64,000 nucleotides of DNA from Hyphomicrobiales bacterium (GTDB lineage Bacteria; Pseudomonadota; Alphaproteobacteria; Rhizobiales; Beijerinckiaceae): NCBI GenBank assembly GCA_900466745.1, contig UBNE01000009.1:186001-250000 (forward strand), given 5' to 3'. The stretch's first letter is position 1; every line of letters begins with the position of its first letter. Made by a program: the position numbers and the translations under genes. The notes under the pieces are model-generated. The model worked only from the letters and a program-made list of their open reading frames with translations, made no database searches and was not told where the DNA came from. Shown piece by piece: positions 16,679-33,726 of the stretch.

Positions 16679-16720
16679 CTTATCCCCGGAACTGCGCCTC
16701 AAGGTTGTAGGAATATTGTC

Positions 16721-16749
16721 TTGACATCGCGGCGCTGATCCTGTAGAGA
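16721..16749 (+). promoter_or_regulatory. Candidate promoter of the GTA cluster
   Basis: Perfect -35 TTGACA (16721-16726), 17-bp spacer, -10-like TAGAGA (16744-16749). It lies about 90 bp before the small-terminase ATG with no other gene between, and a hairpin-T tract falls inside the predicted leader. Confidence 0.5.
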
Positions 16750-16780
16750 TCGGGAACGCTCACGAAATATGCCTTGAACG

Positions 16781-16811
16781 AAGCCGCCGCGCGCTCCGCC
16801 GGCGGCTTTTT
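16781..16811 (+). terminator. Hairpin-T tract between LOG gene and GTA cluster (terminator or attenuator)
   Basis: 9-bp stem AAGCCGCCG/CGGCGGCTT with a CGCGCTCCGC loop, closed by TTTTT (16807-16811). It can end the transcript of the LOG gene, but it also sits about 25 nt downstream of the predicted GTA transcription start, so it would have to be read through for the cluster to be expressed. Confidence 0.7.
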
Positions 16812-16839
16812 CGCGGCTGCCATCCGGAGACGGAAGACC

Positions 16840-17241
16840 ATGGCCGAAGAGGACGGCGCCACGTCGCAGCGGGGAACGCCGGCGCCGAAGCCGCGGCGGC
16901 CTGCGGTCTCGCGCAAGGCGGTGGTGGGCCAGCTCTGGCGCGCGGCCAAGCGCCAGCTCGACGCCCATGAGGACCACCTCGCCGATCTCCCTAAGGGTAC
17001 GGCGGCGAGCGAGGCCGACGCCAAGGCGCTGGCGACGCTGGCGCGGACGGTGCGCGAGCTGGTCGCGATCGAGGAGCCGCAGGGCGCGAAGAGGGACAAG
17101 CAGACGGATGAACTCTCCGCCGCCGACGGCCTGCGACATGTCGCACAGCTCCGTGAGGAGCTTGCTCGACGCCTTGATGCCCTTGCCGCTGGCGGAGCGG
17201 GTGAGGCTGTTGAAGCGGCTGGCGGAGACGGCTCCGCCTGA
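16840..17241 (+). CDS. GTA small terminase subunit (g1-like)
   Basis: 133 residues from ATG 16840, preceded by GGAGACGGAAGACC, a good ribosome-binding context; the frame is open further upstream but through the hairpin. The basic N-terminal third (PAPKPRRPAVSRKAVVGQLW) and the helical, charged C-terminus fit the small terminase/DNA-recognition role of RcGTA g1. Sequence conservation of this gene is low in the family, so the assignment leans on position directly before, and overlapping by 104 bp, the large terminase. Confidence 0.75.
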   Translation: MAEEDGATSQRGTPAPKPRRPAVSRKAVVGQLWRAAKRQLDAHEDHLADLPKGTAASEADAKALATLARTVRELVAIEEPQGAKRDKQTDELSAADGLRHVAQLREELARRLDALAAGGAGEAVEAAGGDGSA

Positions 17242-18484
17242 CTGGATCGAGGTCATCAAGGCGCAGTGGACGATCTGGGCCCGTCCCGACCAGTTGCCGC
17301 CTTCCCCCTGGAAGCCGGTCTGGCTGGTTCTCGGCGGGCGCGGCGCGGGCAAGACCCGCACCGGCGCCGAATGGGTGAAGGGCATGGCTCTGGGCCATCC
17401 CCCTTTCGCCGGCAGGCGGACGGATCGCATCGCCCTGGTGGGCGAGACGCAGGGGCAGGTGCGCGATGTGATGATCGAGGGCGTCTCCGGGCTGCTCTCG
17501 ATCCATACGCGCTGGGAGCGGCCGGTCTGGCAGCCTTCGCTGCGCCGTCTGCAATGGCCCAACGGGGCGATCGCGCAGGTCTTCTCCGCCGAGGACCCCG
17601 AGGGGCTGCGCGGGCCGCAATTCGGCGCCGCCTGGTGTGACGAATTGGCGAAATGGCCGAATCTTCAGGAGTGCTGGGACATGCTGCAATTCGGCCTTCG
17701 CCTCGGCGAGCTGCCGCGGCAGGTGATCACGACGACGCCCCGCCCGGTGCCGTTGCTCAAGCGCCTGCTGGTCGAGCCGCATATCGCCGTCAGCCGGGCG
17801 AGGACGCAGGACAACCGCTACAATCTCGCGGCGGAATTCGTCCGCGCCGTCACCGAAACCTATGGCGGGACCCGGCTCGGCCGGCAGGAGCTCGACGGCG
17901 AGATCGTCGAGGAGAGCCCCGACGCGCTCTGGACGCGGGCGATGCTGGAAGCCGTCCGCGAGCGGCAGCATCCGCCGCTCGCCCGGATCGCGGTCGCGGT
18001 CGATCCGCCGGCGACATCCTCGCAGCGGGCCGACCGTTGCGGCCTCGTCGTCGCCGGCATCGACGAGGCCGGCCTCGGCCATGTCCTGGAGGATGCGACG
18101 ATGGCCGGCGCCCGGCCGCAGGAATGGGCCGAGAAGGCGGTCGCTCTCTATCGCCGCCACGAGGCCGATGCGCTGGTCGTCGAGGTCAACCAGGGCGGCG
18201 AGATGGTCGAGAGCGTCATCCGCGAGGTCGATGCCGGCGTGCCGGTCGTCTCCGTCCGGGCGACGCGCGGCAAATATCTGCGCGCCGAGCCGGTCGCGGC
18301 CCTCTATGCGCAGGGCCGGGTACGCCATGCCGGCGCCTTTCCCGAGCTGGAGGACGAGATATGTTCCTTCGGCCCGGGCGGGCTCGAAGGCGGGCGCTCG
18401 CCGGACCGGCTCGACGCGCTCGTCTGGGCGCTGACCCATCTGATGCTCGCGCCCAGGGGTCGGCCGCGGGTGAGGGGGATGTAG
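17138..18484 (+). CDS. GTA large terminase subunit (g2)
   Basis: 448 residues from ATG 17138 (MSHSSVRSLLDALMPL); ATG 17108 is an alternative. This motor packages DNA into the prohead. The ATPase Walker A is GGRGAGKTRTGAEW (about residue 67) and the Walker B-like acidic pair is in AAWCDELAKW (about residue 167). The RNase H-like nuclease domain starts at VAVDPPATS (about residue 288), with a late acidic residue in SPDRLDALVWAL. Length is normal for RcGTA-type TerL. A palindromic repeat separates it from the portal gene. Confidence 0.95.
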   Translation: MSHSSVRSLLDALMPLPLAERVRLLKRLAETAPPDWIEVIKAQWTIWARPDQLPPSPWKPVWLVLGGRGAGKTRTGAEWVKGMALGHPPFAGRRTDRIALVGETQGQVRDVMIEGVSGLLSIHTRWERPVWQPSLRRLQWPNGAIAQVFSAEDPEGLRGPQFGAAWCDELAKWPNLQECWDMLQFGLRLGELPRQVITTTPRPVPLLKRLLVEPHIAVSRARTQDNRYNLAAEFVRAVTETYGGTRLGRQELDGEIVEESPDALWTRAMLEAVRERQHPPLARIAVAVDPPATSSQRADRCGLVVAGIDEAGLGHVLEDATMAGARPQEWAEKAVALYRRHEADALVVEVNQGGEMVESVIREVDAGVPVVSVRATRGKYLRAEPVAALYAQGRVRHAGAFPELEDEICSFGPGGLEGGRSPDRLDALVWALTHLMLAPRGRPRVRGM

Positions 18485-18491
18485 CTTTCCG

Positions 18492-18590
18492 CCAGCCGTC
18501 ATTGCGGGGAGCGTCAGCGGCGAAGCGATCCAGGGGGGCGTAGAGCTCTGCGACCCTGGATTGCTTCGCTGCGCTCGCAATCACGGCTGG
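18492..18590. repeat. Dispersed palindromic element (CGTCATTGCG/GAAGCAATCC family) inside the GTA operon
   Basis: CCAGCCGTCATTGCGGG at the left and CGCTCGCAATCACGGCTGG at the right are complementary, with inner arms AAGCGATCCAGG and CCTGGATTGCTTCG. It fills the 141-bp gap between the terminase stop and the portal start. A different family from the CGTCATTCCGG elements, but of the same kind. Confidence 0.85.
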
Positions 18591-18625
18591 CGAACGTCGT
18601 TTCACGCTCCAACAGCGAGACTTCC

Positions 18626-19807
18626 ATGTTCGATTTCCTTCGCAGCCTGCGCGGTCGTGCCGCGCCGGACCAGAAGCGCTCGCGCGTCGGGCCGCTCATC
18701 GCCCTGCACGAGGCGGGGCGCGCGATCTGGACGCCCCGCGACTACGTCGCCCTGTCGCGGGAGGGCTATGAGCGCAACCCGGTGGTGCATCGCTGCGTGC
18801 GTCTCATCGCGGAAGCTGCCGCGCAGACGCCGCTCGTCGCCAAGGTCGGATCGCGCGAGATGCCGGAGCACCCGGCGCTCGCCCTGATCGAGAAGCCCAA
18901 TCCGCGCCAGGGCGGCATCGCCTTCCGCGAGATGCTGTTCGGCCATCTCCTCGTCGCCGGCAACGGCTATGTCGAGGCGGTCGGCGCCGGGCGCGAGCCG
19001 CGCGAGCTCTATGCGCTCAGGCCCGACCGGATGCGGGTGGTGCCCGGCCGCGACGGCTGGCCGGAGGCCTATGACTACACGGTCGGCGGCGACACGGTGC
19101 GCTTCCGCCAGGACGAGGGCGAGATGCCGCCGATCCTGCATCTTACCCTCTTCCATCCGGTCGACGACCATTACGGGCTGTCGCCGGTCGAATCGGCGGC
19201 AAGCGCGCTCGACATCCACAACGCCGCCAGCAACTGGCACAAGGCCCTGCTCGACAACGCCGCGAGGCCGTCGGGCGCGCTGGTCTATGACGGGCCGGAC
19301 GGGGCCTCGCTGACCGAGGCGCAGTTCGACCGGCTGAAGCAGGAACTGGAGGATTCCTTCCAGGGGGCCCGCAATGCCGGCCGGCCGCTGCTGCTCGAGG
19401 GCGGGCTCGACTGGAAGCCGCTGTCGCTGACCCCGGCGGAGCTGGATTTCGTCGCGGCGAAGGGCGTGGCGGCGCGCGAGATCGCGCTCGCCTTCGGCGT
19501 CCCGCCGCTGCTGCTCGGCCTGCCGGGCGACAACACCCACGCCAACTTCGCCGAGGCGAACCGCGCGCTCTGGCGCCAGACGGTGATCCCTCTGGTCAGG
19601 CGCACGGCGCAGTCGCTGGCGCAGTGGCTCGGCCCAGCCTTCGGCGACGAACTCGCGCTGGAGCCCGACCTCGATGCCGTCGAAGCGCTGGCCGACGAGC
19701 GGGAATCGCTCTGGCGGCGCCTCGGCGCGGCGGATTTCCTCGACGAGGACGAGAAGCGCGAGGCGGTCGGCTACGGCCGGCGCGCCTCCGGAAAGGAGGA
19801 GCCATGA
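18626..19807 (+). CDS. GTA portal protein, HK97 family (g3)
   Basis: 393 residues. It forms the dodecameric ring at the head vertex through which DNA is packaged and ejected. HK97-type portal features include NPVVHRCVRLIAEAAAQTPL near the N-terminus, LYALRPDRMRVVPG, the LHLTLFHPVDDHYGLSPVESA stretch and FGVPPLLLGLPGDNTHANFAEA in the C-terminal half. Length matches the family. Its stop overlaps the next ATG by 4 bp. Confidence 0.95.
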   Translation: MFDFLRSLRGRAAPDQKRSRVGPLIALHEAGRAIWTPRDYVALSREGYERNPVVHRCVRLIAEAAAQTPLVAKVGSREMPEHPALALIEKPNPRQGGIAFREMLFGHLLVAGNGYVEAVGAGREPRELYALRPDRMRVVPGRDGWPEAYDYTVGGDTVRFRQDEGEMPPILHLTLFHPVDDHYGLSPVESAASALDIHNAASNWHKALLDNAARPSGALVYDGPDGASLTEAQFDRLKQELEDSFQGARNAGRPLLLEGGLDWKPLSLTPAELDFVAAKGVAAREIALAFGVPPLLLGLPGDNTHANFAEANRALWRQTVIPLVRRTAQSLAQWLGPAFGDELALEPDLDAVEALADERESLWRRLGAADFLDEDEKREAVGYGRRASGKEEP

Positions 19808-20004
19808 ACCTGCTCGACCAGATCGTCACGGCCTTCGTCGGCCGGGCCGATGTCGGCCATCTCGGCCTGCTGCTCTGGGCCGCGAGCGCATCGGGGCTCG
19901 CCTGGCTGGTCCTGCGCGAGCTGACCGCGGCCAACCGCCGCTTCGACGATTTCGTCCGCGAGCTCAACCGCTTCAACGCACGTCACGAGGGGGACCCGTC
20001 ATGA
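19804..20004 (+). CDS. Small GTA membrane protein (g3.5-like)
   Basis: 66 residues with one clear membrane-spanning segment (HLGLLLWAASASGLAWLVL, about residues 20-38) and a charged C-terminus. It starts within the portal stop codon (ATGA) and ends overlapping the next small gene in the same way. Position matches the small uncharacterised gene 3.5 of RcGTA. No function is known. Confidence 0.7.
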   Translation: MNLLDQIVTAFVGRADVGHLGLLLWAASASGLAWLVLRELTAANRRFDDFVRELNRFNARHEGDPS

Positions 20005-20189
20005 AGGCCACGAGCGATGCCAAACCTCCGTCTGCCCGCCAGGGCGCCGCGCGGCCGCAGCCGGCCAAGGCGCGCCCCGGCGGCGTGACCGCCGAGACCT
20101 TCAGCCGCTTCGTCCGCAACCTGGCGAAGCTCGAGGGCGGGCGCGCGCAGTCCGGCAGCACGGGGCGCGGCGGGGAGGGCGGCCGATGA
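20001..20189 (+). CDS. Small basic protein of unknown function in the GTA cluster
   Basis: 62 residues, Ala/Pro/Arg/Gly-rich with a short predicted helix (AETFSRFVRNLAKLEGG). Both ends overlap neighbours by 4 bp (ATGA), so it is embedded in a run of translationally coupled genes, which supports that it is expressed. I know of no counterpart; it might be a head-assembly accessory or a spurious frame maintained by coupling. Confidence 0.5.
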   Translation: MKATSDAKPPSARQGAARPQPAKARPGGVTAETFSRFVRNLAKLEGGRAQSGSTGRGGEGGR

Positions 20190-20692
20190 GCGGCCCCTTT
20201 CGCCTGCCGCTCGAGGCCAAGCTCCTGCCGCTGCAGCCGGCGCGCGTTCTGCCGGACGGGGTCTTCGAGGGCTATGCCAGCCTCTTCCGCATTCCCGATC
20301 TGGGCAAGGACGTGGTCGAGCCCGGAGCCTTCCGCGACAGCCTCGCAAGGCGCGGCCCCTCCGGAGTCAAGCTGCTCTGGCAGCACGATCCGGCCGAGCC
20401 GCTCGGACGCTGGCTCAGCCTCGCCGAGGACAGCCGCGGCCTGTTCGTCCGCGGCCGGCTCTCGCTCGCCGTCGCCCGCGCCCGCGAGATCCTCGCGCTC
20501 ATGCGGGAAGGCGCGATCGACGGCCTCTCGATCGGCTTCCGCCCGGAGCGGGCCCGCAACGAGCCGCGCACCGGGCTTCGCCGGCTCGAGCGCGTCGACC
20601 TCTGGGAGGTCTCGATCGTGACCTTCCCGATGCTGCCCCAGGCCCGGATCAGTGCCGTGAAGGCGGCCTGCCGCGGCCCCGCCTTCGCCTGA
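20186..20692 (+). CDS. GTA prohead protease, HK97/S78 family (g4)
   Basis: 168 residues. Serine protease that cleaves the capsid N-terminal scaffold domain and then itself during head maturation. The catalytic His is in VKLLWQHDPAEPLG and the Ser in IDGLSIGFRP, the usual spacing of the family; FEGYASLFRIPDLGKDVVEPGAF is the characteristic N-terminal strand region. It directly precedes the capsid gene. Confidence 0.93.
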   Translation: MSGPFRLPLEAKLLPLQPARVLPDGVFEGYASLFRIPDLGKDVVEPGAFRDSLARRGPSGVKLLWQHDPAEPLGRWLSLAEDSRGLFVRGRLSLAVARAREILALMREGAIDGLSIGFRPERARNEPRTGLRRLERVDLWEVSIVTFPMLPQARISAVKAACRGPAFA

Positions 20693-20725
20693 GCCTCCCT
20701 TTCTCTGCCACCCCGAGGAGAATCC

Positions 20726-21982
20726 ATGACCCATCTCGACCATGCCCCCCAGACCAAGGCGGCCGGCGCCGATCTCGCGCTCGCCTTCGAGGATCTGCGC
20801 TATACGGTGGAGAGCTACCGCGCCACCAATGACGAGCGCCTCGCCGGGATCGAGGCGCGCGGCGGCTCCGATCCGCTGACCGAGGAGAAGCTCGCCCGCA
20901 TGGATGCGGCGCTCGACGACGCCATGCGCCGCATCGACCGGCTGACGCTGGAGCGCGCCCGCCCGCCCCTGGGGCAGGAGGGCGAGAATGGCCTCCATCG
21001 CGACCCGCTCGTCGCCGAGCACAAGGCGGCCTTCGCCGCCTATGTCCGCACCGGCGAGGCCGGCGGGCTGAAGCGGCTGGAGGCCAAGGCGCTCTCGGCC
21101 GGCTCCGGCCCGGATGGCGGCTATCTCGCGCCCTCGACCGTCGAGGGCGAGATCCTGCGCCGCCTCGCCGCCGTCTCGCCGATCCGTTCGCTCGCCACCG
21201 TGCGGACGATCTCGTCGGGCACCTACAAGAAGGCCTTCTCCACCGGCGGCCCGGCTTCCGGCTGGGTGGCGGAGACCGCGGCGCGGCCGCAGACCGGCTC
21301 CCCGGCCCTGGCCGAGCTCTCCTTCCCGGCGATGGAGCTCTACGCCATGCCGGCCGCGACCCAGACCCTGCTCGACGACGCCGTGGTCAATATCGACCAG
21401 TGGATCGCCGAGGAGGTCGAGAGCGCCTTCGCCGAGCAGGAGGGCGCCGCCTTCGTCCACGGCGACGGCACCGACAAGCCCAAGGGCTTTCTCGCCTATC
21501 CGACCGTGGCGGAGGGGAGCTGGAGCTGGGGCAATATCGGGGTGCTGAACACCGGCCTCGCCGGCGCCTTCCCGGCCTCGAGCCCGGCCGATGTGCTGGT
21601 CGACCTGGTCTATGCGCTGAAGGCCGGCTACCGCCAGAACGCCTCCTTCGTGATGAACCGCAAGACGCAAGGCGCGATCCGCAAGTTCAAGGACGCCAAC
21701 GGCAACTATCTCTGGCAGCCGCCGGCCTCGGCGGGGGCGGCGGCGACGCTGCTCGGCTTCCCGCTGGTCGAGGCGGAGGACATGCCCAATGTCGCGGCCG
21801 ATGCCGTTGCGATCGCCTTCGGCGATTTCCGGCGCGGCTACCTCGTCGTCGACCGGGCCGGCGTGCGCATCCTGCGCGATCCCTATTCCGCCAAGCCCTA
21901 TGTGCTGTTCTACACCACCAAGCGCGTCGGCGGCGGAGTGCAGGACTTCGCCGCGATCAAGGGGCTGAAGTTCGCCGCCTGA
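20726..21982 (+). CDS. GTA major capsid protein, HK97 fold (g5)
   Basis: 418 residues. The first about 100 residues are charged and helical (LAFEDLRYTVESYRATNDERLAG...), the delta/scaffold domain removed by the prohead protease. The HK97 core follows with GGYLAPSTVEGEILRRLAAVSPIRSLATV and later DGTDKPKGFLAYP, NASFVMNRKTQGAIRKFKD and LLGFPLVEAEDMPN. Preceded by a GAGGAGA ribosome-binding site. It is followed not by the connector gene but by two minus-strand protease genes. Confidence 0.96.
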   Translation: MTHLDHAPQTKAAGADLALAFEDLRYTVESYRATNDERLAGIEARGGSDPLTEEKLARMDAALDDAMRRIDRLTLERARPPLGQEGENGLHRDPLVAEHKAAFAAYVRTGEAGGLKRLEAKALSAGSGPDGGYLAPSTVEGEILRRLAAVSPIRSLATVRTISSGTYKKAFSTGGPASGWVAETAARPQTGSPALAELSFPAMELYAMPAATQTLLDDAVVNIDQWIAEEVESAFAEQEGAAFVHGDGTDKPKGFLAYPTVAEGSWSWGNIGVLNTGLAGAFPASSPADVLVDLVYALKAGYRQNASFVMNRKTQGAIRKFKDANGNYLWQPPASAGAAATLLGFPLVEAEDMPNVAADAVAIAFGDFRRGYLVVDRAGVRILRDPYSAKPYVLFYTTKRVGGGVQDFAAIKGLKFAA

Positions 21983-22033
21983 CCGCGCCGCGCGCTTCGC
22001 CTCCGGGCGGATGCGGGGCGCGCGGCCATCGCC

Positions 22034-22885
22034 TCAGCGCGAGAACCACCAGCTCCAGCCGGAGTCCATCTGCGGCTGGACCGCCTGGTTCGAGCGCTGA
22101 TCCGCGCCGAGCGCCAGCAACTGGGCGCTCCCGGTCGCGATCCAGTTCTGGTGGTCGCTCACCGGCGTGATCGCGGTGAAGCCGCCGCAGATGCGCCGCG
22201 CGCGCGTCTTCAGAGGCCCGCTCGACCAGCTCACGATGCCGACCAGGTCGCGCGAGCGCGCCGCGCCGCGCAGGACCGGGCCGCCGGAATCGCCGCGGCA
22301 GGCGCCGGCGCCGGGCGTCTCGCCGCGGGCGCGGATGTCGACCGCGACCTTCACCGTGTTCTGCGTAGTGTAGTTGCCGGCATTGACCAGCCGCGTCTCG
22401 CGCAGGCGCCGCGCCGTCTTGCTGTTGTTCTCGGAGGAGAGGCCGTAGCCCGCCATGGTAACGGTCTCTCCCTGCGAGAGGCGCCCGCCCACGGTCAGCG
22501 CTTCCATGTCGTCCGGCAGCGGCTGGGCGAGTCGCAGCAGGGCGAGGTCGGTTCCCGGCTGGGTGCGCGGCGTCGTGCCGGGCACGAAGCTCGGATGCGG
22601 CAGCACGGCGACCACGAGCTGGCGCCGCGCCCGGAAGCGCGTATCGAGGCTGACGACGCTGACCGAGCCGCCATCCATCAGGCAATGCGCGGCGGTCAGC
22701 ACGATCTCGGGTGCGATGACCGCCCCGGAGCAGAGTTCGCCCCGGCTGGTCTCGATCCTGACGGTCGAGGCACGGGCGCCCGCGACATCGCGCGAGCTGA
22801 CGCCGCCGACGACGGCGGATGCGGGCTGCGCCGCGCTCGCGAGAGCGCAGGACAGGGAGAGGATGGCAAGGGAGCGCGCGAGCAT
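22034..22885 (-). CDS. Secreted trypsin-fold (S1) serine protease, copy A
   Basis: 283 residues. Signal peptide 1-24 ends ...QPASA, immediately followed by VVGG, the mature N-terminus of S1 proteases, so signal cleavage alone would give the active form without an activation peptide. Catalytic triad His67 (LTAAHC), Asp113 (GTDLALLRL), Ser200 (GDSGGP). The residue at the base of the S1 pocket, six before the Ser, is Gly194 rather than the Asp of trypsin, so Arg/Lys specificity is unlikely. It lies on the strand opposite to the GTA genes and 64 bp after a paralogue. C-terminal tail SGWSWWFSR is unusual. Confidence 0.92.
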   Translation of the reverse strand: MLARSLAILSLSCALASAAQPASAVVGGVSSRDVAGARASTVRIETSRGELCSGAVIAPEIVLTAAHCLMDGGSVSVVSLDTRFRARRQLVVAVLPHPSFVPGTTPRTQPGTDLALLRLAQPLPDDMEALTVGGRLSQGETVTMAGYGLSSENNSKTARRLRETRLVNAGNYTTQNTVKVAVDIRARGETPGAGACRGDSGGPVLRGAARSRDLVGIVSWSSGPLKTRARRICGGFTAITPVSDHQNWIATGSAQLLALGADQRSNQAVQPQMDSGWSWWFSR

Positions 22886-22949
22886 GGATCAGATCAACGG
22901 AAACGGCAGGACAATCTAGAAGCTGCGCGCCACCAGTCCAGCCCTTCCG

Positions 22950-23717
22950 TCAGCGCATGCTCGTCCAGCGTGCATTTTCGCGCCACTGTGCCAGCGTTGC
23001 GTCGATCCAGCCGCGCTGCGGCCCGACGAGAATGCCCTGGCTGAGCAGGCCGCAACGGCGCCTGCCCGGGCCGGTCGACCAACTGCTCACGGCGACGACA
23101 CCGGAGCCGCTGAAGATCGGGCCGCCCGAATCGCCCTGGCAGGCCCCCGCGCCGGGCCGCTTGCCCGCACCGGCCGGGTCGGCGGCCCAGAGCAGCACGC
23201 GGCCGGGTCCGTAAGGCTCGATCGCCGCCAGCGCGGCGGAGCGATAGGTGCCCGTCGTCCTGGCCTCGCCCTCCTGCGAGACGCCGTAGCCCGCGAGGGT
23301 GACCGGAGCGCCGGCGCGCGGCTGGGTGCCGTCGTCGAGCGTCGCGGCGGCGAAGCGTGCCGGCAGTGGCTCCGCCATCCGGATCAGCGCGAGGTCGATC
23401 GAACGGCGCCGGTTGCTGACCGCCTGGGCGTCGAATGCGGGGTGCAGGCTGACGGCGGCCGGGGTGATCAGAACCGGCTCGCCCCCGGCGCGCCAGTGAA
23501 TGCGCAGCTCCGTGCCGCCGGCCGCGCAATGCGCCGCGGTCAGGATGGCGCGGGGCGAGAGCACGATCCCGGTGCAGACGCCGCCGCGGGCGTTCAGCAC
23601 CATCAGCGTCGCGGCTTCGGCCGGGCCGCCCTCGCGGCCGCCGACGACCGCCTGCGCCGGGGAAAGCCCGAGCCCGCAGGCCAGGCCGAGGCCGAGAAAC
23701 CAGTTCGCGATCCGCAT
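22950..23717 (-). CDS. Secreted trypsin-fold (S1) serine protease, copy B
   Basis: 255 residues from ATG 23717 with GGAGGAG just upstream. Signal peptide 1-23 ends SPAQA directly before VVGG, as in copy A. Triad His63 (LTAAHC), Asp108 (SIDLALIRM), Ser197 (GDSGGP); Gly occupies the S1-base position. GAGACQGDSGGP versus GAGACRGDSGGP in copy A and the shared VVGG-start and Cys pattern indicate a tandem duplication, now well diverged. It is the promoter-proximal gene of the minus-strand pair and is divergent from the connector gene, 69 bp away. Confidence 0.92.
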   Translation of the reverse strand: MRIANWFLGLGLACGLGLSPAQAVVGGREGGPAEAATLMVLNARGGVCTGIVLSPRAILTAAHCAAGGTELRIHWRAGGEPVLITPAAVSLHPAFDAQAVSNRRRSIDLALIRMAEPLPARFAAATLDDGTQPRAGAPVTLAGYGVSQEGEARTTGTYRSAALAAIEPYGPGRVLLWAADPAGAGKRPGAGACQGDSGGPIFSGSGVVAVSSWSTGPGRRRCGLLSQGILVGPQRGWIDATLAQWRENARWTSMR

Positions 23718-23786
23718 CGGGGCGCTCCTCCAGGGAGCGCTGATAGCGCGTCGCTTTCCGCAAATGAACCCTCGAAGGGAGCGATC

Positions 23787-24353
23787 ATGACGCCGCTTGC
23801 CCTGGAGCCGCCGGCCGTCGAGCCGGTCTCGCTGGCCGAAGCCCGGCTCTTCCTGCGCCTCGACCAGACGGAGGAGGACGAGCTGCTGGCGATGCTGATC
23901 ACGGCCGCGCGCCTGCTGATCGAGGCGGCTTCGGGCCGCTGCCTCATCGACCAGCACTGGCGGATCGTGCTCGACCGCTGGCCGCAAGGCGCGATTCGCC
24001 TGCCGCTGTCCCCCGTCGGCGCGATCCTCGGCGCGCGCGTCTATGACGCGCTCGGCATCGCCCGGCCCGTGGACGCCGCGGCGCTGGTGCTCGACGGGCT
24101 GGCCGATCCGCCGCTGATCCGGCTCGCCGGCGAATTGCCCGAGATCGGCCGGGCGCACGGCGCCATCGAGATCGACCTTCGTGCCGGCTATGGCGCGGCC
24201 GCCGACGCGGTCCCCGCGCCCCTGCGCCAGGCTGTGCTGCGCCTCGCGGCGCGCTGGTTCGAGGAGCGCGGCGATGTCGCCGGCCGCGACGCGCAGGCGT
24301 TGCCGGCGGAGATCATGGCGCTGGTCGCGCCTTACCGCCGCGCGAGGCTCTGA
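23787..24353 (+). CDS. GTA head-tail connector / adaptor (g6)
   Basis: 188 residues with GAAGGGAGC before the ATG. PVSLAEARLFLRLDQTEEDELLAMLITAARLLIEAASGRCLI is the signature of the phage gp6-like/TIGR02215 connector that binds under the portal. The C-terminal APLRQAVLRLAARWFEERG is also conserved. First GTA gene after the protease insertion; its transcription must come through the antisense region or from a new promoter in the 69-bp gap. Confidence 0.92.
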   Translation: MTPLALEPPAVEPVSLAEARLFLRLDQTEEDELLAMLITAARLLIEAASGRCLIDQHWRIVLDRWPQGAIRLPLSPVGAILGARVYDALGIARPVDAAALVLDGLADPPLIRLAGELPEIGRAHGAIEIDLRAGYGAAADAVPAPLRQAVLRLAARWFEERGDVAGRDAQALPAEIMALVAPYRRARL

Positions 24354-24355
24354 TC

Positions 24356-24694
24356 ATGGCGCAGACCAACCCCTCGGCCCTCGGCCGGATGCGGCGCAGG
24401 CTCGTGCTGGAAGCCCCGGTCGCGGCGTCGGACGGGCTCGGCGGCGCGACGCGGAGCTTCGCGGCCATCGGGGCCTTCTGGGCGCAGCTCGAATGGCTGT
24501 CCGGCGTCGAGCAATGGCGCGAGGGGCGGCCCGAACAGGTTAGGCGCTACCGCGTCACCCTGCGCTGGCGCGGCGATGTCGATGCCGGCAAGCGCCTGCG
24601 CGACGGCCCGCGCCTCTTCGATATCCGCACGGCGGCCGATCCCGACGGTTCGCGCCGGCGGCTCGTCTGCCTGGTCGAGGAGATCGTGCCATGA
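24356..24694 (+). CDS. GTA head-tail joining protein (g7)
   Basis: 112 residues. Matches the phage head closure/joining family by LVLEAPVAASDGLGGATRSFAAIGAFWAQLEW and the terminal LFDIRTAADPDGSRRRLVCLVEEI. It begins 2 bp after g6 and overlaps the next gene by 4 bp. The role is structural, at the neck of the particle. Confidence 0.9.
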   Translation: MAQTNPSALGRMRRRLVLEAPVAASDGLGGATRSFAAIGAFWAQLEWLSGVEQWREGRPEQVRRYRVTLRWRGDVDAGKRLRDGPRLFDIRTAADPDGSRRRLVCLVEEIVP

Positions 24695-25101
24695 GCGACG
24701 CGGTTCTGGCCCTGCGGGCCGCGGTCCAGGCGCGGCTCGCCGCCGATGCGCCGCTGACGGCCCTGATCGGTCCCGATCGCGTCTTCGACGAGGCGCCGCG
24801 CGCCCTGCGCGGCCTCTATGTCGTCCATGGCGAGGTCGAGGCGCGCGACTGGTCGGCCGGCGCCGAGCGCGGCTGCGAGCAGGATTTCGCGCTCGTGGTC
24901 TGGGCGGCGCAGAGCGGCTCCGCCCGACAGGCGCTGGAAGCCGCCGGGCTGATCGTCGCGGCGCTCGACGAGGCCGATCTCGGGCTCGCGGGCCATAGCC
25001 TGGTCAATCTGCGCTGGCTGTCGAGCCGGCTCGCGCGCGAACCGCGCGGCGGGCTGCCCAGCGTGACGATCCGTTTCCGCGCGGCGACCGAGCCGCTCTG
25101 A
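24691..25101 (+). CDS. GTA tail terminator, DUF3168 (g8)
   Basis: 136 residues. ALRAAVQARLAADAPLTALIG at the N-terminus and VNLRWLSSRLAREPRGGLPSVTIRFRAATEP at the C-terminus are typical of DUF3168 proteins, which cap the tail tube and join it to the head. Overlaps g7 by 4 bp. Confidence 0.92.
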   Translation: MSDAVLALRAAVQARLAADAPLTALIGPDRVFDEAPRALRGLYVVHGEVEARDWSAGAERGCEQDFALVVWAAQSGSARQALEAAGLIVAALDEADLGLAGHSLVNLRWLSSRLAREPRGGLPSVTIRFRAATEPL

Positions 25102-25138
25102 AGATCCGAAACATCGCGACCATCGCAGGAGGCGCCGC

Positions 25139-25549
25139 ATGTCGGCACAGAAGGGCAAGGATCTGCTGCTCAAGGCGGCGGATGGGGAGGGCGGTTTCGC
25201 CACCGTCGCGGGCCTGCGCGCCCGCCAGATCGCGTTCAATGCCGAGACGGTCGACGTCACCCATGCGGAATCGGCCGGGCGCTGGCGCGAATTGCTGGAA
25301 GGCGCCGGCGTGCGCCGCGCCAGCATCAGCGGCTCGGGCATCTTCAAGGACGCGGCCTCGGACGCGCTGGTGCGCCAGATCTTCTTCGACGGCGCGATCC
25401 GCGGCTGGCAGGTGGTCGTACCCGATTTCGGCATCGTCGAAGGGCCGTTCCAGCTCACCAGCCTCGAATATCGCGGCGACCATGCGGCGGAGGTGACCTT
25501 CGACCTCTCGCTGGAATCGGCCGGCGCGCTGGCCTTCGCCGTGCTCTGA
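25139..25549 (+). CDS. GTA major tail (tube) protein, TP901-1 family (g9)
   Basis: 136 residues with GGAGG before the ATG. MSAQKGKDLLLK, VDVTHAESAGRWRELLEGAGVRRASISGSG and FQLTSLEYRGDHAAEVTFDLSLESAG are characteristic of the TP901-1/TIGR02126 tail tube proteins. It polymerises into the tail tube whose length is set by the tape measure. Confidence 0.94.
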   Translation: MSAQKGKDLLLKAADGEGGFATVAGLRARQIAFNAETVDVTHAESAGRWRELLEGAGVRRASISGSGIFKDAASDALVRQIFFDGAIRGWQVVVPDFGIVEGPFQLTSLEYRGDHAAEVTFDLSLESAGALAFAVL

Positions 25550-25559
25550 GGAGGCTCGC

Positions 25560-25904
25560 ATGGTCAATCGTCATCGCGGCGAAACCGCGCTCATGGTCGC
25601 GGGCGAGGCCCTGCCGATGCGGCTCACGCTCGGCGCCCTCGCCGAGCTCGAGCACGCCTTCGCGGTCGACAGCCTGCCGGCGCTCGGCCAGCGTTTCGTC
25701 TCCGGCCAGCTTTCGGCGCGCGACATCGTCCGCATCATCGCCGCCGGCCTGCGCGGCGCGGGGCAGGCGATCCGCGACGAGGAGGTCGCCGGGCTCGCCT
25801 TCGACGGCGGGCTCGCCGGGGCGATCCGGGCCGCCATCCAACTGCTGGAAGCGACCTTCGGCGAAAGCGAGCCGGCCCGCCCTCCGCAGCCGCCGGAGAC
25901 GTGA
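25560..25904 (+). CDS. GTA tail assembly chaperone (g10)
   Basis: 114 residues, GGAGG ribosome-binding site. NRHRGETALMVAGEALPMRLTLGALAELEHAF is the start seen in proteins annotated gene transfer agent family protein (tail assembly chaperone type). Together with the following small frame it occupies the position of lambda G/GT chaperones. Its stop overlaps the GTG start of the next gene. Confidence 0.88.
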   Translation: MVNRHRGETALMVAGEALPMRLTLGALAELEHAFAVDSLPALGQRFVSGQLSARDIVRIIAAGLRGAGQAIRDEEVAGLAFDGGLAGAIRAAIQLLEATFGESEPARPPQPPET

Positions 25905-26101
25905 GTCCGCCGGCGGCTTTTCCCTGGCGCGAGGCGATGGCCTTCGGGCTCGGCCGCCTCGGCTGGCCGCCGGAGCATTTCTGGGCGGCGACGCCGCGCG
26001 AGCTCGCCGCGGCGCTGCGGGCCTGGCGGCGCGAGGCGCCCGGCGGCGCGATCGAGCGCTCCGCCTTCGAGGCGCTGATGGCCGCTTGTCCAGACCGCTG
26101 A
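25901..26101 (+). CDS. GTA second tail assembly chaperone (g10.1)
   Basis: 66 residues beginning at GTG inside the g10 stop codon. PFPWREAMAFGLGRLGWPPEHFWAATPRELAAAL (visible as AFPWREAM...LGWPPEHFW) is the compact signature of the small phage tail chaperone family found in GTAs. The overlapping start means translation depends on g10. Confidence 0.85.
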   Translation: MSPPAAFPWREAMAFGLGRLGWPPEHFWAATPRELAAALRAWRREAPGGAIERSAFEALMAACPDR

Positions 26102-26137
26102 CGAAGCAATCGCAACCCCATTCCGAAGAGGACGGCC

Positions 26138-26737
26138 ATGGCCGACGAAAGCCTCACCGACAGCCTGCGTCTCTCCGACCTGCGGACGATGGATACGCTG
26201 ACGCAATCGCTCAACCGTTCCTCGGAGAGCTTCGGCAAGTCGATCGTCACCGCCTTCTCGCGCGGCGTTATCGAGGGCAAGCGCTTCGAGGACGTCCTGC
26301 GCAGCGTCGGCCGGTCGATGACCGACAGCCTGCTCAAGACGGCGCTGAAGCCGCTGCAGACCGGCCTCTCCAACCTGCTCGGAACCGGGATCAAGAGCCT
26401 GAGCGGGCTGCTCAGCGGGGGGCTCGGCTCGCTGGCGGGCGGCGGCGCCTCCCTCTCCGTCGCCCCCTTCGCCGAGGGCGGGATCGTCGCCTCGCCCGCC
26501 TATTTCCCGACCGGGCGCGGCCTCGGCCTGATGGGCGAGCGCGGCGCCGAGGCGATCATGCCGCTTTCGCGCGGCCCCGACGGGCGCCTGGGCGTGCGCG
26601 CGGCCGGCAGCCCGGCCCGGCCGCTCAGCGTCACGGTCCAGGTCGCGACGCCCGATGCCGAGAGCTTCCGCCGCTCCGAGGCGCAGGTCTCGGCCGCCAT
26701 CGCCCGCGCCGTCGCGCGCGGCAGCCGGGCGCTCTGA
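26138..26737 (+). CDS. GTA tail tape measure protein (g11)
   Basis: 199 residues, short for a tape measure but usual for RcGTA-like particles, whose tails are short. The N-terminal half is helical (ESFGKSIVTAFSRGVIEGKRFEDVLRSVGRSM). A Gly/Leu/Ser-rich hydrophobic stretch (GLSNLLGTGIKSLSGLLSGG) is followed by FAEGGIVASPAYFP and GLMGERGAEAIMPL, motifs also found in lambda-type tape measures. Confidence 0.9.
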   Translation: MADESLTDSLRLSDLRTMDTLTQSLNRSSESFGKSIVTAFSRGVIEGKRFEDVLRSVGRSMTDSLLKTALKPLQTGLSNLLGTGIKSLSGLLSGGLGSLAGGGASLSVAPFAEGGIVASPAYFPTGRGLGLMGERGAEAIMPLSRGPDGRLGVRAAGSPARPLSVTVQVATPDAESFRRSEAQVSAAIARAVARGSRAL

Positions 26738-26748
26738 GGAGGGTTGCG

Positions 26749-27387
26749 ATGAGCGATTTCCACGAGGTCCGCTTCCCGATCGACGTGGCGCGCGGCGCGC
26801 GCGGCGGCCCGCAGCGCCAGACCCAGATCGTCACCCTGGCCTCCGGCCGCGAGGTCCGCAACAGCCGCTGGGCCGATTCGCGCCGGCGCTACGACGCCGG
26901 CCTCGGCGTGCGCTCCTTCGACGCGCTCGCCGCCGTCGTCGCCTTCTTCGAGGAGCGGCGCGGCCGGCTCTACGGCTTCCGCTGGCGCGATCAGCTCGAC
27001 TGGAAGAGCGGGCCGCCCTCGCGGGCGCCGGCCGCGAGCGACCAAGTGATCGGCATCGGCGACGGCTTCAATGCCGGGTTCCAGCTCTGCAAGGATTACG
27101 GCGAGGGCGCCTCGGCCTATCGGCGCCTCGTCGCCAAGCCCCAGGCGGGCAGCGTGCTGGTCGCGGTCGATGGCGTGGCGCAGGCGCCCGAGGCCTTTTC
27201 CTGCGAGGCGACGACCGGGCGCGTGACCTTCGCGCCCGATCATCTTCCTCCGCCCGGTGCCGTGGTCACGGCCGGCTTTGCCTTCGACGTTCCCGTCCGC
27301 TTCGACACCGATGCGATCGAGCTCGACCTGTCCGCCTTCGAGGCCGGCGAGATTCCGCACATCCCGGTCGTCGAGATCCTGCCCTGA
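26749..27387 (+). CDS. GTA distal tail protein, DUF2460 (g12)
   Basis: 212 residues. FHEVRFPIDVARGARGGPQRQTQIV, NSRWADSRRRYDAGLGVRS and YGFRWRDQLDWKSG are diagnostic of the DUF2460/TIGR02217 family. It forms the ring at the distal end of the tail to which the baseplate hub attaches. Confidence 0.94.
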   Translation: MSDFHEVRFPIDVARGARGGPQRQTQIVTLASGREVRNSRWADSRRRYDAGLGVRSFDALAAVVAFFEERRGRLYGFRWRDQLDWKSGPPSRAPAASDQVIGIGDGFNAGFQLCKDYGEGASAYRRLVAKPQAGSVLVAVDGVAQAPEAFSCEATTGRVTFAPDHLPPPGAVVTAGFAFDVPVRFDTDAIELDLSAFEAGEIPHIPVVEILP

Positions 27388-27394
27388 GGCCGCT

Positions 27395-28276
27395 ATGCGC
27401 GCGATTCCCCCCGATCTGGCCGTCCATCTCGAAGGCGGCGCCACGACCCTGTGCCGCTGCTGGAGCCTGACGCGCCGCGACGGAGTCGTCCTCGGCTTCA
27501 CCGACCATGACAGGCCGCTGGAGCTCGAAGGCATCGCCTTCGCCGCCGTCACCGGGCTCGAGGCGGCCGAGGCCACGGCCGAGCTCGGCTTCGCGACGGG
27601 AGGCGGCGACGTTGCCGGTGCGCTCGCCGCCACCGGGCTGAACGAGGCCGATCTGGCGCGGGGCCTTTACGACGACGCCCGCCTGCGCATCTGGCTGGTG
27701 AACTGGGCCGAGCCGGGCCAGCACGTGCTGCTGGACGAGGGCTTCGTCGGCGAGGTCAGGCGCGGCGAGAGCGGCTTCACCGCCGAGGTGAGGAGCTTCG
27801 CCAAGGCGTTCGACGAGGAGCGCGGCCGGCTCTATCTGCGCGCCTGCTCGGCCGATCTCGGCGACGCGCGCTGCGGCGTCGCAGTGAGCGCGGCGGCGGC
27901 GGTCGTGGCCGCGAGCGACGGGCGCCTCGCCCTCTCGGCCGCGGGGCTGGAGGGCCATGCCGACGGGCATTTCACCGGAGGCCGGCTGGTTTTTACGGCC
28001 GGGGCCAATGCCGGCTTCGCCAGCGAGGTCAAGCGCCACGGGCGCGAGGGCGCTCTGGCGGTCTTTCAGCTCTGGCAGGCCGCTCCGCTGCCGATCGCGC
28101 CCGGCGACGCCTTCGGCGTGACGCCGGGCTGCGACAAGAGCTTCGCGACCTGCCGGGCGAAATTCGGCAATGGCGTCAATTTCCGCGGCTTCCCGCATAT
28201 GCCGACCTCCGATTTCATCATCGGCGGCGTCCGGCCCGGCGATGGCGCGCTCGACGGCGGGAGCCTGTTCCGATGA
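27395..28276 (+). CDS. GTA hub protein, DUF2163 / BR0599 (g13)
   Basis: 293 residues. The N-terminal domain has CRCWSLTRRDGVVLGFTDHD; the C-terminal BR0599 domain has CDKSFATCRAKFGNGVNFRGFPHMP. Four cysteines, 151, 160, 246 and 253, are placed as expected for the iron-sulfur site described in the RcGTA hub, so this protein may bind a [4Fe-4S] cluster; that is from knowledge of the family. It overlaps the peptidase gene by 4 bp. Confidence 0.93.
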   Translation: MRAIPPDLAVHLEGGATTLCRCWSLTRRDGVVLGFTDHDRPLELEGIAFAAVTGLEAAEATAELGFATGGGDVAGALAATGLNEADLARGLYDDARLRIWLVNWAEPGQHVLLDEGFVGEVRRGESGFTAEVRSFAKAFDEERGRLYLRACSADLGDARCGVAVSAAAAVVAASDGRLALSAAGLEGHADGHFTGGRLVFTAGANAGFASEVKRHGREGALAVFQLWQAAPLPIAPGDAFGVTPGCDKSFATCRAKFGNGVNFRGFPHMPTSDFIIGGVRPGDGALDGGSLFR

Positions 28277-28704
28277 GGCGCGCCGAGATCGTCGCGGCGG
28301 CGCGCGAATGGCTCGGCACGCCCTACCACCACCAGGCTTCCCTGCGCGGCGTCGGCTGCGACTGCCTCGGGCTGGTGCGCGGGCTCTGGCGCGAACTCTG
28401 CGGGCCGGAGCCCGAGGCGCCGCCGCCCTATTCGCCGCACTGGGCTGAAAGCCTGGGGCAGGAGACCCTGGCGCTGGCGGCGCTGCGCCATCTCGCCCCG
28501 GTCCCGCCGGCCGAGGCCAAGCCCGGGGACGTGCTGCTCTTCCGCTGGCGCGAGCACCTGCCGGCGAAGCATTGCGCCGTGCTGAGCGCGCCCGACCGCA
28601 TCATCCACGCCCATGACGGCGCCGCCGTCGCCGAGGTCGCCTTCACCGGCTGGTGGCGGCGCCATCTCAGCCATGCCTTTTCCTTTCCCGGAGCAACCGA
28701 CTGA
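28273..28704 (+). CDS. GTA NlpC/P60 cell-wall peptidase (g14)
   Basis: 143 residues. The catalytic Cys31 lies in VGCDCLGLVRG and the His near residue 99 in AKHCAVL, the NlpC/P60 Cys-His pair. WLGTPYHHQAS is typical of the phage TIGR02219 subfamily. It sits in the tail tip and is thought to open peptidoglycan during DNA delivery. Start overlaps g13 and the stop shares a base with the next ATG (TGATG). Confidence 0.93.
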   Translation: MRRAEIVAAAREWLGTPYHHQASLRGVGCDCLGLVRGLWRELCGPEPEAPPPYSPHWAESLGQETLALAALRHLAPVPPAEAKPGDVLLFRWREHLPAKHCAVLSAPDRIIHAHDGAAVAEVAFTGWWRRHLSHAFSFPGATD

Positions 28705-31700
28705 TGGCGACGCTTCTTCTGCAGGTGGCGGGCGCGGCCCTCGGCACGGCGCTGGGCGGGCCGCTGGGCGGGGCCGTCGGCCAGGCGCTCGGCGGCCTCG
28801 CCGGCGCGACCATCGACCAGGCCTGGCTCGGCGGCGCCGGCGGCAACAAGGTGGTCGAAGGCCCGCGGCTGAAGGAGGTCAACGGGCTGGCATCGACGGA
28901 GGGAGCGGCGATTGCGCGCCTCTATGGCCGGGCGCGGCTCGGCGGCCAGCTCATCTGGGCGACGCGCTTCGAGGAGGAGATCCAGCTCTCGATCACCCGC
29001 ACCAAGAGCGGCGGCAAGGGCGGGCGCTCGCAGAAGACCTACGAGACCAGCTACAGCTACCACGCCAATCTCGCGATCGGCCTCTGCGAGGGGCCGATCG
29101 CCTTCATCCGCCGCATCTGGGTCGACGGCCGAGAGCTCGACGTGAACACCGTCGCGATGCGCGTCCATCACGGCGACGAAGCGCAGGAGCCCGACCCGCT
29201 GATCCTCGCCAAGGAAGCGGGCGAGGCGCCGGCCTATCGCGGGCTCGCCTATGTCGTCTTCGAGCGCTTTCCGCTGGCGGATTACGGCAACCGGGTCCCG
29301 CAGTTCGATTTCGAGGTGGTGCGCGCCGTCGAGGGGCTGGGCGCCATGATCCGCGCCGTGGCGCTGACGCCGGGCGCCGGCGAGTTCGTCTACGACATCC
29401 GGCCGGTCAGCCACGAGCCGGAGGCCGGCGTCACCGAAAGCCTGACCCGCCACCAGCTCTATGGCGGCGCGGATGTCGATACCGCGCTCGGCCACCTCGT
29501 CGCGCTCTGCCCGAACCTGCGGAGCGTCTCGCTGGTGCTGTCCTGGTTCGGGGACGATCTGCGCGTCGGCTCCTGCAGCGTCGCGCCGCGCGTCGAAGTT
29601 TCGCACAAGCCGACGCTCGGCGCCGCATGGTCGGTGGCGGGCCTGAGCCGCGCCGCCGCCCGGCCGGTCAGCCAGATCGACGGCCGCCCAGCCTTCGGCG
29701 GCACGCCCTCCGACGAGAGCATCGTCGCGCTGATCCGGCGCCTGCGCTTCGACTACGGGCTGGAGGTGGTGCTCTACCCCTTCCTGATGATGGACATTCC
29801 CGCCGGGAACGGACTTCCCGACCCCCATTCGGGCAACTCCGGCCAGCCGCGCTATCCCTGGCGCGGCCGCATCACCTGCGATCCGGCGCCGGGCCGCCCC
29901 GGCAGCCCGGAAGGCGGCCCGGGCCTCGCGGCCCAGCTCGCGGCTTTCGTCGGCACCGTGTCGCCGGCCGATATGAGCGCGGTCGGCGGCACGATCCTCT
30001 GCGCCCGGCCGGAGGAGTGGTCCTATCGCCGGCAGGTGATGCATTGCGCCATGCTGGCGCAGGCGGCGGGCGGCGTCGAAGGCTTCGTCATCGGTTCGGA
30101 GCTGCTCGGGCTGACGCGTCTGCGCGGCGCGGGAGGCGGCTATCCGATGGTCGATCACCTCGTCGCCGTCGCCGCCGATGTCCGCGCGATCCTGCCGGCG
30201 GCGACGCTGACCTACGCCGCCGACTGGACCGAATACGGCGCCGATGCCCGCGACGGCGGCGCCGATATCGACTTCCCGCTCGATCCGCTCTGGGCCTCGC
30301 CCGCGATCGGGGCGATCGGCATCGACTATTACCCGCCGCTCTCGGACTGGCGGGATTCCGCCGGGCATGCCGACGCCGCGCTGGCTCGCGGGCCGGCCGA
30401 TCTCGCCTATCTGCGCGAAAGGCTGATGTCGGGTGAAGCCTATGACTGGTATTATGCCGACGAGGCCGGCCGGAGCGCGCAGGAGCGGCTGCCGATCGGC
30501 GACGGCGCCTATGGCAAGCCATGGCTGTTCCGCCCGAAGGATCTCGCCGGCTGGTGGAGCAATCCGCATATCCGCCGCAGCGGTGGGGTCGAGACCGGCG
30601 CCACCGCCTTCGTACCCGGGGCCAAGCCGATCTGGCTGACCGAGATCGGCGTGCCGGCCGTCGACAAGGGCGCGAATGCGCCGAACGTCTTCCCGGACCT
30701 GAAGTCGGACGAGGGCGGGGTGCCGCCCTTTTCGAGCGGCGCCCGCGACGACCTCGTTCAGGCCCGCGCGCTGGAGGCCATCCTGTCGGGCTTTGATCCG
30801 GCCCGCGCCGGCTTCGAGGCGGCGCGCAACCCGGTTCACCCGGCCACCGGCATCCGCATGGTCGATCCGGCGCATGTCTTCGTCTGGAACTGGGACGCCC
30901 GGCCTTTTCCCGCCTTCCCCGACCTTTCCGGCATCTGGGCTGACGGCAGCAATTTCGAGGCCGGCCACTGGCTCAACGGGCGCCTGGAAGGCACGCCGGT
31001 CGACCGGCTCGTGGCGAAGCTGCTCGCCGATTTCGGCCTGCCGCCGGCCGACCGCATCGCCGTCGACGGCTTCCTCGACGGCTATCTGCTCGACCGGCCG
31101 CTCTCGGCCAGGCAGGCGCTGGAGCCGCTCGCCCAGGCCTTCGGCTTCGACGCCACCATGAGTTCCGGCGCCCTGCGCTTCGAGGGGCGGGGCGGGTCGG
31201 TCTCGTACCGGCTCGGTTCGGACGACCTGGTTCTCGACGGCGACGGAGAGCCGTTCAGCCTGCGCCGCATGCAGGAAACCGAGCTGCCCCTCGAATTGCG
31301 GCTGGGCTTCGGCGATGCCGAGAACGACTATCGCAACGCCGCGGCCCGCTCGCGCCGCCTGGCCGGTGCGGCGCGCCGCGAGGTGGCCGTCGAAACCGCG
31401 ATCGTCACGCGCATGGCCGAGGGGCAGCGCCTCGCCGACCAGCGCCTGCAGGAGGCCTGGGCCGCGCGCGAGACGCTCGAATGCGAGGTCTCGCCCCGCT
31501 GCCTCGCCCTCGAGCCGGGCGACGTCGTGGCCCTGCCGGTGCAGGGCGCCGACCGGCTGTTCCGCATCACGCGGATCGCCGACGGGCCGACGCGGCGCCT
31601 GTCGGGGCGGCTGGTCGAGCCGGCGATCTACCGGAGCACGGGCATCAAGGGCGGCGAGCGGCCGCCCCGCCTCCCGCCGGCGGTGCCCGGGCGGCCCCTG

Positions 31701-32624: not shown

Positions 32625-32694
32625 CCCGGCCGCCGGCCGGGCCTGTGGACGGGGCGGCATGTTCATGGCGTATTCACGCATGCGGGGCTAAGCC

Positions 32695-33018: not shown

Positions 33019-33048
33019 CGCCGGATTCGAGAACGGAGCGAACCGACC

Positions 33049-33717: not shown

Positions 33718-33726
33718 CCCGGGCTC

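Follow-up and report, generated by a model that had tools for sequence, protein, structure and literature searches.

What keeps two protease genes, on the opposite strand, in the middle of a gene transfer agent (GTA) operon? The locus lies in a 64,000-nucleotide stretch of a Hyphomicrobiales bacterium (GenBank assembly GCA_900466745.1, contig UBNE01000009.1; this whole stretch is the window below), whose plus strand holds an RcGTA-like head-tail cluster, with homologues of g2-g15 in the usual order and GTA-specific families among them. An insert of 1,804 bp parts g5, the capsid gene, from g6, the head-tail connector gene, and carries two minus-strand S1 protease genes, here PR1 and PR2. A first-pass annotation had described two opposite-strand, paralogous trypsin-type proteases in a 1.8 kb space between g5 and g6, a description that Pfam matches, the identity between the two proteins and many further genomes bear out, and had left the explanation between a neutral host insertion, a moron-type cargo and a regulatory switch. 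We found that an S1A protease divergently adjoins g6 in most of the sampled GTA-bearing genomes of the family, that the proteases have diverged together with the capsid, and that the pair has outlasted repeated GTA losses with both frames open and purifying selection still acting on them. We consider it probable that a host-beneficial locus for exported S1A proteases became lodged in the GTA and has been vertically inherited and independently selected, probably with promoters of its own. The enzymes most likely serve the bacterium and not the virus-like particle, because they often stay intact when the surrounding GTA cluster is lost. The arrangement is old and widespread, and its hosts are soil and plant bacteria.

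Distribution and co-divergence of the protease pair

In a family sample of 199 genomes from 43 genera, PR2-like proteins occurred in 146 genomes (36 genera) and g6 in 122. Coordinates were at hand for 141 of the protease genomes and for the 122 g6 genomes, and in every one of the 103 genomes with both, the protease is divergent from g6 across a gap of 8-468 bp (median 97). The five protease-positive genomes without coordinates are G413, G485, G486, G603 and G626; G413 and G485 have g6, which brings the genomes with both genes to 105. The first-pass annotation had allowed that g5 and g6 might be adjacent in all relatives, and this is refuted: the insertion is shared, and the exceptions include three loci (L261-L263, genera g29 and g176) where g5 and g6 are contiguous in a complete-looking GTA that has no protease. 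L224 is also contiguous.

Among named genomes, the genus of the window included, for which the best 80 of 447 loci were kept, g6 adjoins the protease in 71, eight have a feu-type scar (one with a capsid remnant) and one has neither. By scar we mean a site at which the protease stands beside feuN/feuP-like genes. From its position we take the small gene to the right of the GTA cluster to be FeuN-like, and the response regulator and histidine kinase beyond it to be FeuPQ-like, both names being our assumption. The named carriers include members of Bosea, Microvirga, Methylobacterium, Chelatococcus and Enterovirga, and the best hit of the window (89%) suggests that its own genus is Bosea or lies very near it. 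Several more genera of the family, as well as families f20 and f36, share the order of g5, opposite-strand protease and g6, with one or two proteases, and an order-wide search of 397 genomes matched PR1 in 78 (E 1e-8) and g6 in 251 (E 1e-15). Within the genus, PR1 matches 60 of 61 genomes, though in G059 it is a different trypsin that matches, and weakly. For the capsid there are matches in 52 of the 61, in G029 (36%) and G045 (27%) via distant capsids only and in pieces or remnant form in G002, G004, G016 and G054; the connector matches 51, fragments among them. Neither chance nor assembly error can account for a gene order that many other genomes show and that dozens of independent assemblies repeat, and a recent insertion specific to the genus is ruled out by the occurrence of the arrangement in other genera.

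Some protease loci fall outside this pattern. Protease-like loci of families f35, f28, f11, f2, f32, f37, f39, f44 and f16 were surrounded by no GTA match, and we did not treat them as copies of the site. At L247 and L248 (g151), L259, L260 and the f36-g42 loci L179 and L199-L201 the protease is present, but the fetched stretch contains no GTA and no scar flanks. Paralogues of the site protease lie elsewhere in some f20/g28 genomes (L189:9419-10135, L194:9408-10244, L223:9462-10211, L222:9568-10299), and the stretches fetched around these four contained no GTA match.

A tree of 96 mature proteases separated 83 rows (GTA-site copies and a few paralogues) from 13 other trypsins by a branch supported at 100/100 and placed PR1 of the genus and PR1 of genus g28 in one clade (99/99). 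This tree covers a subset of the genus genomes and excludes by filter the copies without AAHC or AARC; there are 26 such rows, and most of the readable ones have TAGHC or TVAHC, so the histidine is present. For the 58 of the 80 named loci in which PR2, g5 and g6 are nearly whole, pairwise distances of PR2 correlated with those of the capsid at r = 0.91 and with those of g6 at 0.88, and capsid and g6 correlated at 0.86. The protease has therefore stayed with the cluster no less faithfully than its GTA genes have stayed with one another. GTA clusters would carry the pair today by vertical inheritance from an ancestor that gained it between g5 and g6.

Temperate phages carry extra genes, known as morons, in their operons, and the pair resembles a moron in lying within a phage-type operon, probably under its own promoter. 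Had the proteases come with the prophage ancestor as lysogenic-conversion cargo, this would account for their location in a phage-derived cluster and for a single weak protease match of PR1 among the PHROGs (phrog_9683, 3.2e-06). Trypsin-like folds also exist in viruses, and a Foldseek comparison of PR1 with viral models returned trypsin-like proteins, mostly of eukaryotic viruses but with a few phages among the sources. However, PR2, which was the protein searched, matched 0 of 50,697 phage records (E 1e-3), and no protease stands beside g6 at any of 23 loci that represent other families of the order (flanks of about 1.5 kb, or less at contig ends), so the protease is not likely to be ancestral to the GTA. 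Unlike a phage moron, moreover, the pair is kept by the host after the phage genes go. Plasmid records matching at E 1e-10 numbered two, both from Methylobacterium. We find a phage origin hardly credible; of the moron-type cargo proposed in the first-pass annotation, the part that survives is cargo of the host.

The pair after loss of the GTA

In eight genomes of the genus (L091-L098), the 19.5 kb around the pair contains no match to g2-g15, and the LOG-family gene, PR1, PR2 and the feuN-feuPQ-like genes are kept in unchanged order. No GTA-type capsid or g6 was found anywhere in these eight genomes. Two more loci (L099, L100) retain the pair amid remnants of the terminase, connector, capsid or tail protein genes. 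At least five changes are required to explain GTA loss or degradation on a tree of 58 genus genomes, and GTA-positive sisters are strongly supported (G012/G036, 100/99; G030/G033, 100/98; G054/G046, 100/100). Left out of this tree were G059 and G029, in which no site protease was found, and G008, in which PR1 is in two pieces; the cluster piece of G029 starts at a contig edge within g6. Outside the genus, scars are found at L167, L180, L192, L193 and L202-L204, and an additional set of 16 protease-only loci contains 12 more (L245, L246, L249-L258). Genera g28, g160, g163 and g31 and a genus of f20 have GTA-positive members alongside scar members, and there were therefore probably extra losses in these five genera, outside the tree count. 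We infer that each loss took at least two deletions, which would have removed about 14 kb from both sides and left the middle 1.8 kb.

Both PR1 and PR2 remain open after GTA loss. In five GTA-less pairs, their ratios of nonsynonymous to synonymous substitution (dN/dS, NG86) were 0.035-0.158; five GTA-positive pairs gave 0.043-0.209 and three mixed pairs 0.052-0.180, compared with 0.041-0.284 for GTA genes and 0-0.135 for four flanking host genes. On the GTA genes we saw only purifying selection. The neutral host insertion put forward in the first-pass annotation is contradicted by a pair that outlives repeated GTA loss at such ratios. Genus g28 does show that a GTA cluster tolerates passengers, because its clusters hold other host-like genes (L166:10041-11384, L169:15465-17104; named by eye), with a cupin-like gene separating PR1 from g5, and glutathione-transferase-like and LysR-like genes lying between g12 and g13. 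A functionless insert merely awaiting deletion, however, would not be expected to show dN/dS well below 1, to preserve its catalytic motifs or to be kept while everything around it was deleted, and an artefact would not be repeated from assembly to assembly. Neutral passenger and artefact together are, in our judgement, very improbable.

The same losses bear on whether the proteases are dedicated to the GTA, working in maturation, release or uptake of particles in a role like that of LypA in Caulobacter. Stable residence within the cluster and association with GTA presence would agree with such a role, as would the requirement for LypA peptidase activity in GTA-mediated lysis of C. crescentus that the accessible part of PMC13236601 reports. 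The LypABC CARD-NLR-like system for GTA release likewise has a trypsin-like peptidase in a GTA context; however, LypA as described in that part of PMC13236601 is multidomain (CARD-like plus ATPase), whereas PR1 and PR2 are single-domain, look exported and outlive the GTA. A LypABC-type domain fusion is not seen in PR1 or PR2, both having Trypsin-type matches only, a result confined to the two proteins because no search was aimed at an NLR partner. The pair has survived the five or more times that the GTA was lost or degraded within the genus, other genera retain it at their scars, and it is missing from the GTA-positive loci of g29 and g176. A dedicated GTA function is therefore an unlikely reason for its presence.

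Predicted enzymes and candidate promoters

PR1 and PR2 are paralogues, 37% identical over 241 columns (2e-38), and both match Trypsin PF00089 (5e-28 and 1.4e-21, respectively). A His/Asp/Ser triad and a signal-peptide-like N-terminus are readable in each. We call the proteins secreted from inspection of the signal peptide sequence, which was also used to pick the PR2 start at 23717, where a mechanical open reading frame call runs 22950..24158. The S1A motifs are in place (row P0001 has AAHC65, DLALL113 and GDSGG198), and the H, D and S columns are invariant in alignments A1 and A2. With S1A enzymes of the chymotrypsin/trypsin type the pair shares the triad motifs, GDSGG, four conserved cysteines, the V/I-V-G-G N-terminus and the fold. 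An AlphaFold2 model of PR1 has the S1A fold (pLDDT 87) with a disordered tail, and Foldseek placed this one model with the chymotrypsin fold, giving 1361 matches in the Protein Data Bank at E<=0.001 (best 4.5e-14), Fusarium trypsin, complement factor D and elastases among them. By sequence, the nearest solved structures are 3i77 and 3i78 (named Trypsin) for PR1, and the mite allergen Der p 3 and trypsin 1fn8 for PR2. The title of 3i77 names a loop-grafted 'SGT', presumably Streptomyces griseus trypsin.

The pair differs from S1A trypsins at position 189, which we take to lie six residues ahead of Ser195: Gly stands there instead of Asp in 155 of 191 rows, a set that contains duplicates as well as outgroup trypsins. 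With Gly/Ala at 189/190 in the S1 pocket, the enzymes may therefore have an elastase-like preference for small side chains, not the Lys/Arg preference of trypsin. A further difference is that no activation peptide follows the signal peptide. The pattern AxA|[IV]VGG, in which the signal peptide runs straight into the mature N-terminus, is found in 111 of 117 genus-site copies, and of 13 outgroup rows, 6 have a K/R-ending propeptide. The active site of S1A enzymes takes shape when the free N-terminus inserts next to Asp194. Export, presumably by Sec, would itself switch the enzyme on because the signal peptide leads directly into V/I-V-G-G; the signal-peptidase cut would bare this N-terminus and the enzyme would be active on reaching the envelope. 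Once active, PR1 and PR2 may cleave periplasmic or extracellular proteins or peptides.

PR1 also differs from S1A trypsins in its additional C-terminal tail (22034-22060), which follows a variable linker and ends in SWWF[STGA]R, nearly invariant in the main clade of the genus; the PR1 members printed from the small-genome clade are without it. That SWWFxR is a shared sorting tag was rejected because across the whole genome its codon pattern occurs once, in PR1 itself.

Each protease gene is probably transcribed leftward from its own candidate promoter. The PR2 pattern, GGGTTCA...GCGCTATC, recurs in 35 of the 38 copies extracted from the main clade, and none of the five GTA-less copies among those 38 is without it. 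The PR1 pattern, CTGGAC...TAGATT, recurs in 34 of 51 main-clade site copies (52 PR1 rows with G059 removed), 4 of the 8 GTA-less ones among them. At 23718-23786, where the first-pass annotation had considered a promoter that would make the two halves independent, the conserved promoter-like element faces PR2, not g6. In many genus members a short hairpin can pair the Shine-Dalgarno region in the PR2 5' leader (23718-23741); its mean z of -1.5 over 35 leaders, against simple shuffles, is suggestive only. At the other end of the insert, the hairpin in the g5/PR1 gap folds with -44.9 kcal/mol (z -2.98, 21975-22045), and in L104 the g5 and PR1 match ends are only 13 bp apart. A terminator between g5 and PR1 was rejected, as a pattern scan found none there despite the strong hairpin; over 15400-33200 the pattern scan found one terminator-like site, fewer than the 5.2 expected by chance.

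A GTA transcript would have to cross 1.8 kb antisense to both proteases, which processive anti-termination of the GafZ type could permit; the accessible part of PMC11150451 presents GafZ, the anti-terminator of the Caulobacter GTA (CcGTA), as a model for long GTA read-through. The switch raised in the first-pass annotation would be excludon-like, with the GTA transcript antisense to the proteases, protease transcription opposing the GTA, and the cell doing one or the other. The opposite orientation in all 103 family genomes with both coordinates is as this predicts, though descent alone would preserve it identically. Also in keeping with a switch are the position of the PR2 promoter-like element, about 16-45 bp from the g6 start, the greater frequency of the protease among GTA-positive genomes, and the capacity of CcGTA-type anti-termination, going by the same part of PMC11150451, to carry a long GTA transcript through the insert. 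However, the pair persists without any GTA, all five GTA-less members extracted keep the PR2 promoter pattern, and the loci of g29 and g176 have the GTA without the protease. We judge a switch to be improbable. Similarly doubtful is a reading in which the fates of cells are coupled: those firing the GTA would silence the proteases by read-through antisense and then lyse, non-producers would keep exporting the proteases to scavenge or receive what producers release, and cheater lineages that drop GTA production would retain the recipient-side trait. If true, this would be a producer/recipient switch inside the GTA operon, conserved across an entire family of bacteria.

Several observations weigh against an independently selected host locus with its own promoters. 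The protease is found in 105 of 122 GTA-positive and 41 of 77 GTA-less family genomes (Fisher p 5e-7, uncorrected for kinship), which leaves 36 of the 77 without it; the protease has therefore often been lost too, or was never present, and a functional tie to the GTA may exist. Physical hitch-hiking would account for this association, and a functional link would do so too. The genus tree on which at least five changes were counted is built on the proteases themselves. Outside the genus, strict AxA|[IV]VGG holds in 19 of 41 rows only (site copies and off-GTA paralogues mixed), and the printed non-genus rows that fail it have AxA followed by VVQG or VIQG. Of the 51 main-clade copies, 17 do not have the PR1 promoter pattern, and both promoter patterns are missing from 7 of 7 members of the small-genome clade. 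Both were drawn up post hoc, with the sequences already in view, and they are recognized by conservation because a consensus scanner gave no sigma70 site in the region. PR1 is in two pieces in G008 (L103:9534-10354), perhaps through sequencing error; the LOG gene of G008 is likewise in two pieces (L103:1961-3135), where sequencing error is also possible. A host locus under its own selection is still, to us, the probable explanation.

Neighbouring features and meaning for the family

The features of the window are collected in Table 1. Pfam/TIGR matches in the GTA cluster include Terminase_6, portal, proheadase, capsid, Phage_TAC_11 (GTA-gp10), GTA_TIM and Rcc01698_C, and some small genes without a Pfam match (e.g. 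g11 and g12) were assigned from position. Cytochrome c maturation genes also lie on the right flank of the cluster. At the scars seen, the PepSY-like small protein (32695-33018) divergently adjoins the protease. PepSY proteins are often linked with protease inhibition, and this protein and the site protease could be linked as enzyme and inhibitor. In the accessible text of PMC5929573, feuNPQ is treated in Sinorhizobium meliloti only.

Table 1. Positions of the protease genes, their neighbours and candidate regulatory features in the window
Feature	Position	Strand	Matches and remarks
LOG-family gene, left host flank of the GTA and of the genus scar	15518-16678	+	TIGR00730
Terminase	16967-18484	+	
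Portal	18626-19807	+	
Prohead protease	20186-20692	+	
GTA g5, HK97-type major capsid protein, left neighbour of the insert	20726-21982	+	PF05065 Phage_capsid 7.1e-94; TIGR01554
Convergent g5/PR1 gap	21983-22033	.	strong GC hairpin; much shorter in some relatives
PR1, predicted exported S1A serine protease, 283 aa	22034-22885	-	signal peptide end PASA|VVGG; GACRGDSGG; C-terminal SWWFSR tail
Candidate PR1 promoter	22912-22942	-	GCTGGACTG (22934-22942) and CTAGATTG (22912-22919); conserved sequence
PR2, predicted exported S1A serine protease, 255 aa	22950-23717	-	signal peptide end AQA|VVGG; GACQGDSGG
Candidate PR2 promoter	23742-23771	-	GGGTTCA (23765-23771) and GCGCTATC (23742-23749); in the 69-bp divergent PR2/g6 gap
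GTA g6, head-tail connector, right neighbour of the insert	23787-24353	+	PF05135 Phage_connect_1 9.6e-09; TIGR02215 2.2e-52
GTA_TIM protein, end of the tail genes	28689-32624	+	
Small exported-looking protein, flanking both GTA and scar on the right	32695-33018	+	marginal match to PepSY (E 0.027), short of the cut-off
Response regulator and histidine kinase, flanking the scar on the right	33049-35109	+	

Insertions were also seen within GTA capsid genes of the genus. In G016 the capsid gene is broken by an insert of about 23 kb (L244:7478-8440, L183:9996-12059), and the open reading frame at its 3' junction (L183:9996-11981) resembles by eye a large serine recombinase; an integrative element seems to have targeted the capsid gene. 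In G002 the gene is broken by about 59 kb near the same residues (~313-332; L184:3643-9008), and the junction-side reading frames resemble by eye a phospholipase-D-type/helicase pair.

With the RcGTA-like cluster of the Rhodobacter capsulatus/Caulobacter type, the cluster in the window shares terminase, portal, prohead protease, HK97 capsid, connector, tail and GTA_TIM genes in the usual order, but differs in that two host-type genes on the opposite strand split g5 from g6, which are thus not contiguous. An S1A protease, a GTA cluster and vertical inheritance are each ordinary. What appears to be new is a stable, family-wide host locus on the opposite strand inside a GTA operon that survives repeated loss of that operon. 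We found no literature report of this insert, in a search that supplementary files and most subscription papers lay beyond. The word 'trypsin' does not occur in the available main text of PMC10883770, on genes co-evolving with GTAs, and neither protease, trypsin nor Bosea occurs in the accessible part of PMC9765227.

GTA clusters are usually seen as phage-derived operons kept as a unit; here a host locus sits mid-operon in many genera, and the operon is unbroken. Sister species offer a natural control, one host gene with and without a GTA at the same chromosomal site, and the scar is a marker of GTA losses. The opposing gene pair in the path of the GTA transcript is a direct test of anti-termination outside Caulobacter. 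For the family, the pair also counsels caution, since a conserved place in a gene cluster does not by itself imply a GTA function.

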